Assembly: GCA_020859755.1 (NCBI GenBank)
Contig: JAJBVP010000248.1
Coordinates: 1 to 39,844 of the forward strand
Length of the DNA stretch: 39,844 nucleotides
Direction of reading: 5' to 3'
Origin: Bacteroidales bacterium
Lineage (GTDB): Bacteria > Bacteroidota > Bacteroidia > Bacteroidales > Muribaculaceae
Positions 87 through 12,809 of this stretch are shown piece by piece; position 1 is the first letter of the stretch, and every line of letters begins with the position of its first letter. The translations under genes were made by a program, and so were the position numbers. The notes beneath the pieces were generated by a model. The model saw only the letters and a program-made list of their open reading frames with translations, did no database searches and was not told the origin of the DNA.

Positions 87-95
87 TTGGTTACA

Positions 96-130
96 ACGAC
101 AATAAATGTCGTAGTTGGCGGGTATCTTTG
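96..130 (+). promoter_or_regulatory. rtcB promoter: ACGACA-N5-TGTCGT palindrome (96-112) plus -7 box TATCTTTG (123-130)
   Basis: Perfect 6-bp arms; TAnnTTTG box as in Bacteroidetes; no TTTG -33 element at normal spacing; the same layout recurs at 6529-6566. Confidence 0.7.
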
Positions 131-164
131 TGGCGTAAAATAAATATAAAGATGATTGAGAAAG

Positions 165-1334
165 ATGATTAAGAAGGTAGTAATGGGCACAAGGTTGCCT
201 GCCAAGATGTGGCTAGATGAGGTAGAGGACTCGTGTATGTCCCAGATTATCAATCTTGCGTCGTTGCCTTTTGCGTTTAAGCATATAGCTATTATGCCTG
301 ATGCTCATGCTGGTAAGGGAATGCCGAATGGTGGAGTCTTGGCCACCAAGGGGGTGGTTGTTCCTAACGCTGTAGGGGTGGATATAGGCTGCGGTATGTG
401 CGCTGTGAAGACGTCGCTGAAGGCCTCGGAACTTGTGCGTACCGACCTTACGGGGATCATGCGCCATATACGCAAGACCATACCGTTGGGTTTCGACCAT
501 CAGGCCAAGGCTGTTGACGAGTCGCTACTACCGGAAGTCGACTTGTCAACCTTGCCTTTCCTCAAGGACAAAAAAAACGCCATGCTCAGGGAAATCGGTA
601 CTCTTGGCGGCGGCAATCATTTTATCGAGATCCAGCGCGACGTGGCCACCGACGATGTATGGGCTATGATCCACTCGGGAAGCCGTCATGTGGGTTTGAC
701 GGTCGCCAACCACTACAATAAGTTGGCTGAGCATTGGTGTGAGCGGTGGTATGCCGACACGCTCCCGGGGCTGGCTTTTCTCCCGATAGAGACGGAGCTT
801 GGCAAGGATTACATGCGCGAGATGGAGTTTTGCGTGGCTTTGGCGTTGGCCAATCGCAAGGCGATGATGGAAAGGGTGATGGAGGGTTTCCGAGGGGTGC
901 GCCCGGCGGTGGAGTTTGAGCCGATCATCAACATCGCCCACAACTATGCGGCTTGGGAGAATCACTATGGCCACGATGTCATTGTTCATCGGAAGGGTGC
1001 GACCCGGGCCCGGGCCGGGGAGATCGGCATTATACCCGGCTCGATGGGCACGAAGTCGTATATCGTGGAAGGGTTGGGGAATCCCGAGTCGTTCATGAGT
1101 TGCTCCCACGGGGCCGGTCGACGGATGAGTCGCAGCCAGGCTTTCAAGACGTTGTCGCTTGAGCAGGAGTGTGCGGCGATGGATGCCAAGGGGATTATCC
1201 ACGGCATGCGACGTGACGGGCTGGATGAGGCACCGTCGGCCTATAAGGACATAGAGCAGGTGATATCCCTGGAGAGCGACTTGGTGCGACCCTTGGTTGA
1301 GCTTTCGCCGTTGGCCGTGATCAAAGGCGACTAA
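165..1334 (+). CDS. rtcB: RtcB family RNA ligase
   Basis: Motifs PDAHAGKGMPNGGVLAT, GVDIGCGM, GTLGGGNHFIE, HSGSRHVG, SHGAGR. ATG at 165 preferred over the TTG at 156. Confidence 0.93.
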   Translation: MIKKVVMGTRLPAKMWLDEVEDSCMSQIINLASLPFAFKHIAIMPDAHAGKGMPNGGVLATKGVVVPNAVGVDIGCGMCAVKTSLKASELVRTDLTGIMRHIRKTIPLGFDHQAKAVDESLLPEVDLSTLPFLKDKKNAMLREIGTLGGGNHFIEIQRDVATDDVWAMIHSGSRHVGLTVANHYNKLAEHWCERWYADTLPGLAFLPIETELGKDYMREMEFCVALALANRKAMMERVMEGFRGVRPAVEFEPIINIAHNYAAWENHYGHDVIVHRKGATRARAGEIGIIPGSMGTKSYIVEGLGNPESFMSCSHGAGRRMSRSQAFKTLSLEQECAAMDAKGIIHGMRRDGLDEAPSAYKDIEQVISLESDLVRPLVELSPLAVIKGD

Positions 1335-1406: not shown

Positions 1407-1459
1407 GCGGTGAAAGTGAGGGATAGGGTAAGAGCGTGCGGAGATAAAGAAAAAATTTG

Positions 1460-1467
1460 TAAATTTG
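1460..1467 (+). promoter_or_regulatory. -7 promoter box TAAATTTG upstream of the small ORF/dxs operon
   Basis: Matches TAnnTTTG about 40 nt upstream of ATG 1509. Confidence 0.5.
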
Positions 1468-1508
1468 CGGGTTAATTGGCGTGAAAGGCCAAAAATGAAA
1501 TTAACGTT

Positions 1509-1691
1509 ATGAAAGGTGCATTGATTGCGAGATTTGTTTGCCTGCTGCTGTTGTGGCTATTACTGTGCTACATCCTGCTGAAGACCCGCGACTGGAATTT
1601 CTGGACCTTATTTGTAGTAGTGGCCTCGGGAATTGTGGTGTTTGTGCCTCTTTATAAGAAATATATCCGCGATGGGAAAGGACGCAAGTAA
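1509..1691 (+). CDS. Small two-TM hydrophobic membrane protein
   Basis: 60 aa with two hydrophobic stretches; just downstream of a promoter box; overlaps the dxs start by ~20 bp. Confidence 0.65.
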
Positions 1692-3576
1692 TCTCCTTGA
1701 CACGATACAAAGCCCCGACGACCTACGTCGGTTGAGCGTGGAGCAGTTGCCGCAAGTGTGCCGCGAGCTGCGCCAGGAGCTGATTCGTCAGCTGTCGTCC
1801 AATCCGGGGCATTTGGCCTCGTCGATGGGTGCCGTCGATCTCACGGTGGCTCTACATTATGTGTTCGATACTCCTCGCGACCGTCTGGTGTGGGACGTTG
1901 GACACCAGGCATATTCCCATAAAATCCTTACCGGGCGACGCGAGCAATTCGCTACCCAGCGCACTTTAGGAGGCCTGAGCGGTTTTCCTAACCCAGCAGA
2001 AAGCGAATACGACACTTTCACGGCGGGCCACGCTTCCAACTCTATCTCGGCGGCTCTGGGCATGGCCGTTGCATCGGAGCTCAACCACGATGAGCCGCGT
2101 CGTAACGTGGTGGCAATCATCGGTGACGCTTCGATAAGCGGTGGACTTGCTTTCGAGGGGATCAACAACGCGGCCAATACCCCCAACAACCTGCTTATCA
2201 TCCTCAACGACAACGACATGTCGATTGACCGGAATGTTGGGGCTCTCAACGACTATCTCACGCATATCACGACCTCCAAGGCTTACAACCGCCTACGGTA
2301 CAAGGTGTACCGTTTCTTGCGGAAGTTTAGGTTGATCTCGGAGCGCAAGAGGGGAGTGATTTTGCGATTCAACAATTCGCTGAAGTCGCTCTTGACCCAC
2401 GAGCAGAATCTGTTTGAAGGGTTGAATATCAGGTATTTGGGGCCTTTTGACGGCCATGATGTGGAGCGTATCGTCAGGGTGTTGAAAGACGTGAAGGACA
2501 TGGAAGGCCCTCGCATCCTTCATTTCCGCACGATCAAAGGAAAAGGTTACGGCCCAGCTGAGCGCGACCCGGCCTCGTGGCACGCCCCTGGCAAGTTTGA
2601 TCCCAAGACAGGGAACCGCCTAAGCGGGTCCAACGGCAACCAACCGCCAAAGTATCAGGATGTTTTCGGCGAAACGTTAGTTGAATTGGCTCTAAAGAAT
2701 CCCAAAATCGTGGCTGTAACGGCGGCGATGCCGTCGGGTACCTCGGTGAGCGAGATGCAGGACGCATTGCCCGATCGCACCTTTGACGTGGGGATTTCGG
2801 AGGGGCACGCCGTCACCTTTTCGGGAGGCATGGCCAAGGATGGGCTTCGGCCCTTCTGTGCCATCTACTCGTCGTTTCTCCAGCGAGGTTACGACCATAT
2901 CATCCACGACGTTGCTATTCAGCGACTTCCGGTGACTTTTTGTATTGACCGCGCGGGGCTGGTGGGCGAGGATGGCGTCACCCATCACGGGATGCTCGAC
3001 ATCTGCTACCTGCGTTCCATTCCGGGCATGATTGTTTCGGCTCCTCGCGACGAGGTGATGCTGCGCAACCTGATGTACACGGCTCAGGCCGATGATCATG
3101 GCCCGTTCGCCATACGTTATCCTCGTGGGGCCGGTCATAATCTCGACTGGCTCCAACCGATGCGAGCGCTTCCCATCGGTAAGGGGGAGAAACTCACTGC
3201 AGGCACCGACGTGATGGTAATCTCGGTGGGCACAATGGCTTATGAGACTGCGCAAGCCATTGCGCAAGCCCGTAGGCAGGGCGTGAACGCGTCCCATTAC
3301 GATGCCATTTTCGTCAAGCCGCTCGACGAGGAGATGCTTGAGGAGATTGCCCAGACTAATCGACCGATAGTCACCGTGGAGGACGGGGCCGTGGCCGGTG
3401 GGTTCGGTTCGGCTGTGATGGAATGGCTTCAAGCCCACGGCTACAACCGCGCTGTCACCACCATCGGAATCCCCGACAACTTCGTCACCCACGGCACCGT
3501 GGCTCAATTGAAAAAGATATGCGGAATGGATCCCGATAGTATTGCGCAAGCCATCATAAAAGCCAATGAATCATGA
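1672..3576 (+). CDS. dxs: 1-deoxy-D-xylulose-5-phosphate synthase
   Basis: [66 protein letters not shown] at 1672 (MGKDASNLL) preferred over the upstream GTG. Confidence 0.96.
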
Positions 3577-4904
3577 AGATAGTGATTGTAGGAGCGGGAG
3601 AAGTGGGTAGCCACTTGGCCAAACTTCTTTCCAAGGAGGATCAAGACATAACGCTGGTCGACGCCGACGAGCAGAAGCTTGCGCCGCTCGACAGCAACTA
3701 CAACCTGATGACTGTCACTGGCCAACCCACTTCCTTTGCCGCATTGAAGCAGGCGCGAGTGGAACAGTGTGACCTGTTTATCGCCGTCACGCCCTACGAG
3801 ACTGAAAATATCACATCGTGCGCCATAGCCAAAAGCCTTGGGGCCCACAAAACAGTAGCGCGCATCGACCGCTACGAATTCCTAAAGGAGGAGCACCGCG
3901 GCTTTTTCACTCGCATGGGTGTCAACCACTTGATTTACCCTGAGCTGTTGGCCGCCGAGGAGATCGTCACCTCGTTGCGACGCTCCTGGGTAAGGCATTG
4001 GCTTGAGCTACACGAGGGGGAAATCATATTGGTGGGTGTGAAGGTGCGCGAGGGGGCCAAAATCGTGGGTCAGATGCTTAAGGATCTGGCCATCCAAGCG
4101 GCCATCCACGTTTCGGCCATCAAGCGCAAGCATGAGACGATCATCCCCCGAGGCTACGACCGTATCGAGCCGGGCGACATCGTCTATTTCACCACCACGC
4201 GTGACCATGTGGAAGCTTTGCGCGAGATATGCGGCAAGGTGGATAAGCGCGTGCGGCGAGTGATGGTGATGGGTGGGAGCCGTATCGCTGTGCGGCTATG
4301 CGCCTTGGCTGGAGATGAATTCCGCCTGAAAATCATCGAGCAAAGTCCTGAGAGATGCCGCTGGCTTGCGGAGCTATGTCCCAACGCCGAGATTATCCTG
4401 GGCGACGCTCGCGATAACGAGGTATTGTCGGACGAGGGGATTCGCGACATGGACGCTTTCGTGGCCCTCACCGATCAAAGCGAGACCAACATTTTGGCTT
4501 GTCTCTCGGCCAAGGAGTTGGGCGTTCATAAGACGATTGCCGAGGTTGAGAATATCCAGTTTATCTCGGAGGCCGAGGGCCTTAACATTGGCACAATCAT
4601 CAACAAAAAGCTGCTGGCTTCGTCCAAGATATTCCAGCTTCTGCTTGACGCCGATACCGATTCGTCGAAATGCCTGGCACTGGCCGATGCCGAGGTGGCG
4701 GAAATCGAGGTAAAGCCCCACAGCAAGATAACTCGCGCCCCGGTCAAGGATCTCAATCTGTCGCGCGACATGACCATCGCCGGATTGATTCGCGATGGTC
4801 GGGGGATGCTCGTCGAGGGTAACACCCTTATCCAGCCTGGCGATCACGTGATGGTATTCTGCCTTAGCGGCGCGCTTTCCAAAATCGAAAAATTATTTAA
4901 TTAA
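3573..4904 (+). CDS. trkA: Trk system potassium transport NAD-binding protein TrkA
   Basis: [22 protein letters not shown]; two RCK_N/RCK_C repeats; ATGA overlap with dxs; followed by trkH. Confidence 0.93.
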
Positions 4905-4910
4905 ATTATA

Positions 4911-5002
4911 GTCTTCAGTGTTCAGCAGATACTTTCTGAAGACTGAAAGCTGAAGACAGAAAACTGAAAACTGAAGACTGAAAACTGAAGACTTCAAACT
5001 GA
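4911..5002. repeat. Heptameric tandem array (CTGAARA-type) with an inverted partner segment, upstream of trkH
   Basis: From 4936: CTGAAGA CTGAAAG CTGAAGA CAGAAAA CTGAAAA CTGAAGA CTGAAAA CTGAAGA CTTCAAA in uninterrupted 7-nt register; the 5' part reads TTCAGTG TTCAGCA. Confidence 0.85.
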
Positions 5003-6469
5003 ATGTTCAAGACCAACATAAATCTGCCGATGCTGCTGCGAGTAGTGGGCTGGCTTCTCATGATAGAGGCGGCTTTTATGCTCGTGCCTTTCCTCACGTG
5101 CCTGATTTATGGGGAAAATGACTATGATGCCTTTCTTTTGTCGATTATCATCACCGTTGGGGCAGGCGCGTTGATGACCTTCGGGATCCACCCCGCTCGA
5201 CACGATATGGGCAAGCGTGAAGGCTTCCTGCTGACGGCTTTGGTGTGGGTGATTTTTTCGGCGTTTGGCATGATACCGTTCATGCGGTGTCACACACCCA
5301 TGTCGCTGAGCGACTCCTTTTTTGAGGCTATGTCGGGTTTCACCACTACCGGGGCGTCGATCCTCGAGGATATGACCCATCTAAGCCATGGGATAGTGAT
5401 ATGGCGATGCCTGATGCAGTGGATTGGGGGTATGGGAATCATCCTTTTTACCGTCGCCGTGTTGCCGATGCTCAACTCCTCGGGGGGCATGGCCATGTTT
5501 AACGCCGAGGTCACGGGAATCACACGCGAGAAGCTGCGGCCTCGCGTGAGCCAAACGGCGATGAGTCTGTGGCAACTCTACATCACCCTCACGGTGTTGC
5601 TCATCGCGTTGCTGTGGCTTGGTCCCATGAATTTCTTCGAGGCGGTATGCCACGGGTTTTCGACGATTTCCACCGGAGGCTTCTCTACCGAGAACGATTC
5701 AATCGCGGCGTTCCATTCGGTATATATCGACATTGTGGTCACCATCTTTATGTTCCTGGGGGGCGTCAACTTCGCTCTGCTGGTGAAGGCCGCATCGGGC
5801 AAAATTCGCTCGGCGTGGAGCAACGACGTTCTGCGCACCTATGTGGGGATTATAGGGGTGATGATGGTGCTCTTCGTTATCACAGTCATCGTCAACGGGC
5901 AAGCGCGGACGTGGCAGGATGTGACCATCGCCCCGTTGTTTCAGATCGTGTCGACGATGACCTCCACGGGCTACACTGTCTCCAACTTTGAGAACTGGGG
6001 GGCATTCGTGCTGTCGCTCGTGTTTGGGATGATGTTCTTCGGGGCTTGTGCCGGCTCTACCAGCGGTGGAGCGAAGATCGACCGGCTGATCTTCCTGCAG
6101 AAGTACGTCAAGAACGAGCTACGCAAGTGTGTCCATCCCCGTCAGGTGTATGCGGTGAGAGTAGGGGGCAAGGTGATGCCTACGGAATTGGTAGCCAAGG
6201 TCGTTGCTTTCTTGTGCTTCTACGTCATCTTGATCATGGCTGGGGGCATCGCACTGACGGCGTTGAACATCCCCTTGGTCGACTCTTTCTTCTCCTCCTT
6301 CTCGGCCATCAGCAACACGGGCTTGGGAGCTGGAGTGACCGGCTACGGCTCCTCCTATGAGATAATTCCGGCGGCCGGCAAATGGATACTGTCGTTCTTG
6401 ATGCTCGTTGGTCGTCTCGAGATCTTCACCGTTCTGATTCTCTTCACCTCGGCTTTCTGGAAAAAATAA
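5003..6469 (+). CDS. trkH: TrkH family potassium uptake protein
   Basis: Selectivity-filter-like segments FTTTGAS, STGGFST, TSTGYT, NTGLGAG; multi-TM; adjacent to trkA. Confidence 0.93.
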   Translation: MFKTNINLPMLLRVVGWLLMIEAAFMLVPFLTCLIYGENDYDAFLLSIIITVGAGALMTFGIHPARHDMGKREGFLLTALVWVIFSAFGMIPFMRCHTPMSLSDSFFEAMSGFTTTGASILEDMTHLSHGIVIWRCLMQWIGGMGIILFTVAVLPMLNSSGGMAMFNAEVTGITREKLRPRVSQTAMSLWQLYITLTVLLIALLWLGPMNFFEAVCHGFSTISTGGFSTENDSIAAFHSVYIDIVVTIFMFLGGVNFALLVKAASGKIRSAWSNDVLRTYVGIIGVMMVLFVITVIVNGQARTWQDVTIAPLFQIVSTMTSTGYTVSNFENWGAFVLSLVFGMMFFGACAGSTSGGAKIDRLIFLQKYVKNELRKCVHPRQVYAVRVGGKVMPTELVAKVVAFLCFYVILIMAGGIALTALNIPLVDSFFSSFSAISNTGLGAGVTGYGSSYEIIPAAGKWILSFLMLVGRLEIFTVLILFTSAFWKK

Positions 6470-6489
6470 CGCTGGGATGTCGCCAAAAT

Positions 6490-6516
6490 AATTCCCATAA
6501 AAAGAGGAATTTTTTG
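6490..6516 (+). terminator. Terminator after trkH
   Basis: AATTCC-N10-GGAATT followed by TTTTT. Confidence 0.6.
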
Positions 6517-6528
6517 AAATTTTTTGTG

Positions 6529-6566
6529 CTACGACAAAGGATGTCGTAGTAGGGGGGGTAATTTTG
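6529..6566 (+). promoter_or_regulatory. Palindrome CTACGACA-N5-TGTCGTAG (6529-6549) plus -7 box TAATTTTG (6559-6566)
   Basis: Perfect 8-bp arms; same core (ACGACA-N5-TGTCGT) and near-identical spacing to the -7 box as at the rtcB promoter. Confidence 0.7.
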
Positions 6567-6589
6567 CAGCGTCAATAGGGCATTCACAT

Positions 6590-6640
6590 AGCGGGATGGT
6601 GCAGTGGCTAGCATTTGAGTCTCATAATCTCCCTTGTCGC
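6590..6640 (+). other. tRNA-Met-like 5' half (acceptor 5' strand, D-arm, CAU anticodon arm), incomplete
   Basis: AGCGGGATGGTGCAGTGGCTAGCATTTGAGTCTCATAATCTCC: D-arm GTGC/GCAT and loop CTCATAA with CAT anticodon; no matching 3' acceptor strand. Confidence 0.6.
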
Positions 6641-6792
6641 CGATGTTCTATGAGAAGGCCGACGATCGCGTGGAGCGTATCGTGAGGCTGGTGGAGCGTT
6701 GCGACGACCGGTTTGTTGCCCAGCTGGCAGTGTACACGCGTCAAAAGATGAATCTGCGCAGTGTGCCCCTGATGCTGGTTGTGGATCTTGCC
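6640..6792 (+). pseudogene. Truncated TROVE-domain (Ro60-like) protein fragment
   Basis: FYEKADDRVERIVRLVERCDDRFVAQLAVYTRQKMNLRSVPLMLVVDLA resembles the conserved N-terminal part of bacterial TROVE proteins; homology stops abruptly on both sides. Confidence 0.7.
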
Positions 6793-6824
6793 CTCACGCC
6801 TTGGAGGCGTGGGGGTTTATTTTT
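6791..6824 (+). terminator. Rho-independent terminator directly after the TROVE fragment
   Basis: CCCTCACGCC-TTGGA-GGCGTGGGGG 10-bp stem (one GU) followed by TTTATTTTTT on the + strand. Confidence 0.75.
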
Positions 6825-11933: not shown

Positions 11934-12809
11934 ATGGCATCCAAGGACTCGTTCTATATCCGTTTTGACTGGGCCGCGAAACGATTGCTTCGCGACAAGG
12001 CCAACTTCGCAATCCTCGAGGGTTTTCTTTCCGCTCTCTTGGGCGAACAGGTAACGATTCTCGAGATCCTCGAGAGCGAAAGCAATCGCCTCAACCCTTA
12101 CGACAAATACAATGTCGTTGACATTAAGGCGCGCAACCATCGCGGCGAGGTCATCATAATAGAGGTGCAAAACCTCTATGAGATGGACTTCGTGAAGCGC
12201 ATCATTTACGGTGCCTCAAAAGCCGTGGTGGAGCAAGTGTCGTCGGGCGACCCGTATGGTGTGATCCACAAGGTTTACTCAATCGCGATTGTGTATTTCG
12301 ACCTTGGTTCGGGAGGCGACGACTATGTTTTCCGAGGCCACACCAACCTCATAGGCATGCATAGCCACAAGGAGTTGAAGGTGTCGGAGCGCGACCGCAA
12401 GGGTTATGAAACCGACACCTACGACGTGTTCCCCGAATACTATGTGTTGAAGGTCAACAACTTCGATCAGGTGGCTACCACTCCTTTAGAGGAATGGATG
12501 GACTATCTGAAGCGTGGTTATATCTCTCCCTCCACCCAGGATTCTGGTCTACAACGCGCCCAAGAGGTTCTCGGTCGCGAGGCTATGACCGATGCCGAGC
12601 GTTATGAGTATGACCGATACCTCATCGCCAAGCGTAGCCAGCAGGATTCGATGGAAAAGGAGCGGGACGAGGGCCGCGCCGAAGGTCGAGTGATAGGCTT
12701 TTCTGAGGGCCGTATCGAAAGTGCCCTATTGATGCTGGAAAGCGGCATGACGCGGGAGCAGGTAATCTCAATCCTTCATCTAAGTGACGAAGAAGCAGCC
12801 CAATTATAG
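11934..12809 (+). CDS. Rpn family recombination-promoting nuclease / PD-(D/E)XK nuclease family transposase-like protein
   Basis: FDWAAKRLLRDKANFAILEGFLSALLGEQVTI...VVDIKARNHRGEVIIIEVQ...RIIYGASKAVVEQ; charged C-terminal tail typical of the family. Confidence 0.88.
   Translation: MASKDSFYIRFDWAAKRLLRDKANFAILEGFLSALLGEQVTILEILESESNRLNPYDKYNVVDIKARNHRGEVIIIEVQNLYEMDFVKRIIYGASKAVVEQVSSGDPYGVIHKVYSIAIVYFDLGSGGDDYVFRGHTNLIGMHSHKELKVSERDRKGYETDTYDVFPEYYVLKVNNFDQVATTPLEEWMDYLKRGYISPSTQDSGLQRAQEVLGREAMTDAERYEYDRYLIAKRSQQDSMEKERDEGRAEGRVIGFSEGRIESALLMLESGMTREQVISILHLSDEEAAQL

Follow-up and report, generated by a model that had tools for sequence, protein, structure and literature searches.

A probable remnant of a Ro60/Y-RNA/RtcB operon, with half a tRNA-Met, in a Bacteroidales genome

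In Salmonella, a single damage-responsive promoter drives the rsr-yrlBA-rtcBA operon, which encodes a Ro60 orthologue and RtcB together with Y RNAs (Hughes et al. 2020, PMC7790460). Bacterial Y RNAs with a tRNA-like domain (YrlA) have been described (PMC8394870), and in jumbo phages TROVE/Ro genes occur alongside tRNAs and RNA ligases in the context of RNA repair (PMC7824862). Among the papers searched, we found none on a tRNA-Met in the Y-RNA arrays of Ro operons or on a WYL-controlled Ro operon in Bacteroidota.

Here we analyse a stretch of 39,844 nucleotides (the window) from a gut-type Bacteroidales genome of 3.6 Mb in 294 contigs (completeness 100, contamination 0.16). Each species, that of the window included, was represented by one genome.

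Anatomy of the remnant

Between 6529 and 6824 the window holds, in order, a palindrome, a run of G, a -7 box, a 23-base leader, half a tRNA, a TROVE segment and a terminator, with trkH upstream and a convergent DUF3089 gene downstream. The original prediction had described a chimera of box, tRNA half, TROVE piece and terminator at 6559-6824; our analysis bears it out. To this element we add the palindrome at 6529-6549. When the whole remnant was searched as DNA in relatives, only short matches were obtained, among them the operator of the sister species G002 and the TROVE promoter of G030, and no conserved counterpart was found in G001 or G002.

Table 1. Positions of the features discussed. 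Coordinates are those of the window unless a genome and contig are given.
Feature	Position	Strand	Basis
Palindrome (putative operator) CTACGACA-AAGGA-TGTCGTAG	6529..6549	.	unique exact match; sister rtcB
Bacteroidales -7 box TAATTTTG	6559..6566	+	seen in sequence
tRNA-Met(CAU) 5' half: acceptor 5' strand, D-arm, anticodon loop	6590..6627	+	shuffle test
TROVE (Ro60/Rsr) fragment, 53 codons, single open frame	6634..6792	+	homology, column conservation
Rho-independent terminator: 12-bp stem, loop of 3, T tail	6790..6824	+	terminator search
Synteny breakpoint	6471..6811	.	collinearity of flanks with G002
Palindrome copy CAACGACA-ATAAA-TGTCGTAGTT, then box TATCTTTG (rtcB promoter)	94..115	.	sequence
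rtcB, RNA ligase	156..1334	+	Pfam RtcB E=6.5e-111
One-mismatch palindrome sites, window's genome	G000:C270:34108-34127; G000:C277:643-662		
One-mismatch palindrome sites, sister species	G002:C108:8670-8689; G002:C60:2440-2459		

The sequence AGCGGGATGGTGCAGTGGCTAGCATTTGAGTCTCATAA corresponds to the 5' half of tRNA-Met. It begins at 6590, contains a D-arm (GTGC..GCAT) and a CAU anticodon at 6623-6625, and may run on to about 6633. Aligned locally to the tRNA-Met of related TROVE loci, it reached a score of 40, against 21.6 ± 3.2 for 1000 dinucleotide shuffles (p ~0.001), and the best-scoring nine among 125 tRNAs were all tRNA-Met. These results confirm the proposed tRNA-Met 5' half with a CAU anticodon and a missing 3' half. 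A complete cloverleaf is absent from the remnant, which has neither a T-arm nor a 3' acceptor strand; ARAGORN and Rfam returned no matches on it, as one would expect with only half a tRNA. That the T-arm was also preserved, as a GTCGCCG match to L123 only might indicate, is not favoured, because a conserved TROVE Leu and Ser at 6634-6639 account for the same bases. The tRNA/TROVE joint lies within about 6626-6634, at or just 3' of the anticodon loop, a range within which its exact base cannot be fixed.

The original prediction had also implied that this half belongs to a Y RNA, as its tRNA-mimic domain. We reject this identity: the mimics of relatives are permuted, and the element that matches is a separate, canonical tRNA-Met inside their Y-RNA array. 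The Ro-binding motif GCCGTAG..TACTTC with its closing stem is absent from the remnant.

By column conservation, the TROVE fragment extends from a TTG codon at 6634 (a conserved Leu) to 6792, without stop or frameshift. It represents a region near the N-terminus of the intact proteins, and its 53 codons fall far short of a complete TROVE ring and vWA-like domain (~510 aa). A tblastn search with the 51-residue translation retrieved phage Ro/TROVE genes (best 2e-5). Identity was 54-63% to intact Bacteroidales TROVE genes and up to 71% in the named genome collection, giving 54-71% overall across 49 aa. The Pfam TROVE profile (PF05731), at E=0.13, was by itself too weak for a query of 51 aa. In a comparison with 72 homologues, 22 columns reached a conservation of 90% or more, and the fragment retains 20 of these; of the remaining two, one lies upstream of the joint and the other is a change from Glu to Asp. 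The roughly 50 codons of TROVE core proposed from the sequence are thus borne out. No other TROVE was detected in the window's genome by Pfam profile search.

The terminator was located at 6790-6816 plus the T tail, where shuffles expect 0.5. With the box and the palindrome intact and a terminator stem of 12 bp, the evidence supports the claim that promoter and terminator are still present around the internal losses. The fold of the remnant RNA is somewhat more stable than that of shuffles (z -2.06, 6/200), a low free energy for which the terminator alone may account.

Operator, promoter and a candidate regulon

The exact pattern TACGACA-N3..8-TGTCGTA occurs at a single site in the 3.6 Mb genome, that of the remnant, against none for the control pattern, and the same TACGACA..TGTCGTA palindrome precedes rtcB in G002. 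In the window, rtcB lies 5.2 kb upstream of the remnant, adjoins dxs and what is probably the end of a 5S rRNA gene, and has its own promoter, whose palindrome at 94-115 matches ACGACA-N5-TGTCGTAGT without mismatch. Read by eye, positions 1-40 apparently belong to a 5S rRNA gene, at its 3' end, so that the contig would break at an rRNA operon just upstream of rtcB. A gene for a PD-(D/E)XK nuclease family transposase (PF12784), adjoining an AraC-family regulator, was also noted at 11934-12809.

Elsewhere, an ACGCA-N-TGCG palindrome followed by TAnnTTTGC lies upstream of TROVE, within 1.4 kb, in 19 of 75 loci; it was found downstream of TROVE in 0 of the 75, and 0 times in reversed sequence. The palindrome thus differs in form, with TACGACA/TGTCGTA arms in the window genus and ACGCA..TGCG in intact operons elsewhere. 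What is more, GCAGCGTCAA, 3' of the -7 box, resembles the leaders of intact TROVE operons (GCAGCGTGAAAAC, GCACCGTCAA and GCAGCGTCAAAC). A putative operator/promoter is therefore common to the remnant, to intact Ro operons and to rtcB. Retention of the promoter had been predicted correctly; its tie to an RNA-repair regulon that includes rtcB at 156-1334 had been missed.

Copies of the palindrome with one mismatch stand before two AAA+ ATPase genes, both in the window species and in G002 (Table 1), and in G002 one of these genes is divergent from a WYL-domain gene. A WYL-domain gene is also divergent from the intact TROVE operons of L124, L250 and L252 and lies beside those of G030 and G068, and an orthologue is retained in the window's genome at G000:C1:6748-7743. 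On this pattern of gene arrangement, the palindrome would be the binding site of the WYL protein. The candidate WYL regulon would then consist of rtcB, the TROVE remnant and the two AAA+ ATPase genes, each behind the palindrome. An operator-like site in G004 sits within a coding gene and was taken as chance.

Intact operons in relatives

TROVE is rare in the family (15 of 397 genomes, the window remnant counted), and an intact gene is present in 3 of 118 among the nearest relatives. The intact layout, seen in rumen and gut Bacteroidales and in an IMG/VR contig, is promoter, Y-RNA array with embedded tRNA-Met, TROVE, rtcB. Many rumen and gut Bacteroidales have Y-RNA-like units (GCCGTAG...TACTTC...closing stem) ahead of TROVE. 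In G030 and G060, rtcB lies 3' of TROVE, and TROVE, Y RNAs and rtcB stand in one operon, as they do not in the window. Three intact relatives each have a single cluster of 3-5 exact matches to the Y motif, and G761 has 2 such matches; the window's genome has 7 matches, scattered and all with one mismatch (control 2), and the motif search found no Y-RNA cluster in it.

The original prediction proposed looking in relatives for a complete tRNA-Met upstream of TROVE, and one was found: a complete tRNA-Met(CAU) lies inside the array in L076, L089, L107, L108, L123 (the locus of G030), L144/L145 and L251, so that relatives do have TROVE downstream of such an element. Several of these embedded tRNAs lack the 1:72 pair (C-A, T-T, A-A, C-T, T-C), and the anticodon stem is GGG:CCC in L076 and L251 (the latter read by eye). 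On these features, unpaired 1:72 and GGG:CCC stem, the embedded tRNA-Met often appears initiator-like. Its possible role as a spare initiator, an anticodon-nuclease decoy or a damage sensor is now testable.

Some Y RNAs of these arrays hold a permuted tRNA-like module of their own. Several Y-RNA units with such a module, ordered as T-arm, loop-closed acceptor and then D-arm and so resembling YrlA, were noted on the reverse strand of L051 at about 3820-4500 and upstream of TROVE in L108 and L124. In the loci scanned, tRNA was the sole Rfam family to score above threshold. In the IMG/VR contig L037 (~2230-2330; also L038) a Y-RNA/tRNA/TROVE cassette is apparently fused into a terminase-like frame, which could mean either that a phage took up the cassette or that the contig was joined at this point. 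In other Bacteroidota (L111, L116, L129, L131, L132, L137), TROVE lies in or beside large tRNA arrays of up to about a dozen tRNAs.

Origin of the remnant and relation to known systems

Two contigs of G002 correspond to the flanks of the remnant: one is collinear with the left flank (1437-6470) and the other with the right flank, from 6812 onward. On the latter, operator and rtcB lie directly ahead of the same DUF3089 gene. As the flanks match two different contigs, the remnant sits at a rearrangement breakpoint; it occupies the place held by rtcB in the sister species. We consider it very probable that the remnant is a decayed, resident Ro60/Y-RNA/RtcB operon, whose promoter may still respond along with rtcB. 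Direct support comes from its anatomy, the homologies of its parts, the common palindrome and the break in synteny.

The order of the losses, the regulation and the lack of function of the remnant are what we infer. The ancestor would have had operator/promoter, Y-RNA array with tRNA-Met, TROVE (Ro60/Rsr) and rtcB. Deletions and a chromosomal rearrangement would then have removed the Y RNAs, the tRNA 3' half and most of TROVE, with rtcB displaced or replaced. In G002 the middle of the operon would have been lost, rtcB staying on the operator; in the window species operator, half tRNA and TROVE piece would have stayed, and rtcB now stands beside the probable 5S end with a separate operator copy to itself. 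This history needs at least three joints, to account for the loss of the Y-RNA array, of the tRNA 3' half with the TROVE N-terminus, and of the TROVE C-terminus, probably together with rtcB. The original prediction of a former tRNA plus Ro60 locus holds in outline, but its two deletions are too few.

The intact operons probably answer RNA damage, with a WYL-domain regulator acting at the palindrome that overlaps the promoter. By analogy with Salmonella (PMC7790460), Ro and Y RNAs would handle damaged RNA and RtcB would re-ligate cleaved tRNA. The remnant promoter may fire in step with rtcB, giving a functionless RNA of about 250 nt; a Ro ribonucleoprotein is not possible from the remnant, because neither an intact TROVE gene nor a Y-RNA cluster was found in the genome. 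The open TROVE frame, the 20 of 22 conserved columns and the intact operator count against decay, suggesting that decay is recent or that something has been retained.

What might be retained is a damage-induced small RNA joining the tRNA-Met 5' half to a piece of TROVE mRNA, or an operator that serves as a decoy for the regulator of rtcB. Such reuse would fit the intact state of promoter, operator and terminator, the match between the remnant's operator and that of rtcB in the same genome, and the stability of the RNA fold. However, a low free energy is expected from a terminator plus coding sequence, neither a Y-RNA motif nor a Ro protein is present, and G001 and G002 have no conserved counterpart, so that we regard reuse as improbable. 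Even more doubtful is the thought that a damage-induced chimeric RNA, beginning with a tRNA-Met 5' half, a fragment of the kind that activates the Salmonella operon, feeds back on the rtcB regulon. A tRNA-Met half that ends near the anticodon loop is suggestive, yet a plain deletion explains it; that the joint is an RtcB-ligated RNA copied back into DNA is less likely still.

Two further explanations we hold to be very unlikely. An assembly artefact might be suspected in a draft or metagenome-derived genome of 294 contigs, with the element on a synteny breakpoint and the contig beginning at a probable 5S rRNA end. The pieces, however, stand in the correct order and on the correct strand beneath a genus-specific operator, no second genomic copy of them exists as the source of a mis-join, and the completeness (100) and contamination (0.16) of the genome speak against it. 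Recent horizontal import of a truncated Ro cassette by a phage, in place of decay of a resident operon, would accord with the many phages that carry TROVE and with IMG/VR contigs L144/L145, which hold a tRNA-Met/Y-RNA/TROVE cassette. Against import stands the form of the operator (TACGACA..TGTCGTA), which is peculiar to the genus and is found at rtcB both here and in G002, where rtcB, on this operator, likewise has DUF3089 as its neighbour to the right.

Read as a decayed operon, the remnant itself reflects ordinary decay, and its value is that of a marker, a sign that the genus once had the full Ro/Y-RNA/RtcB operon. The promoter that survives in it pinpoints the operator and, through this, a candidate RNA-repair regulon under WYL control in Bacteroidales, in which RtcR is not the obvious regulator. 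Less ordinary is that a tRNA-Met recurs as a component of Ro/RtcB operons that have an operator of the WYL type.

The intact Bacteroidales operons share with Salmonella rsr-yrlBA-rtcBA (PMC7790460) a Ro60 orthologue, Y RNAs and RtcB; the window copy is a remnant of such an operon. Whereas the Salmonella operon uses sigma-54 and RtcR, with its CARF domain, and includes rtcA, those of Bacteroidales have a -7 box promoter with which a palindrome overlaps, in several cases a divergent WYL-domain protein, and frequently an array that includes a tRNA-Met. The Y-RNA-like units of intact relatives, some with tRNA-like T-arm/D-arm modules, recall YrlA (PMC8394870), whereas the piece in the window, half a canonical tRNA-Met without the GCCGTAG...TACTTC motif, is not a Y RNA. 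Unlike the TROVE genes of jumbo phages (PMC7824862), the window locus is chromosomal and stands under an operator of the host's rtcB type.
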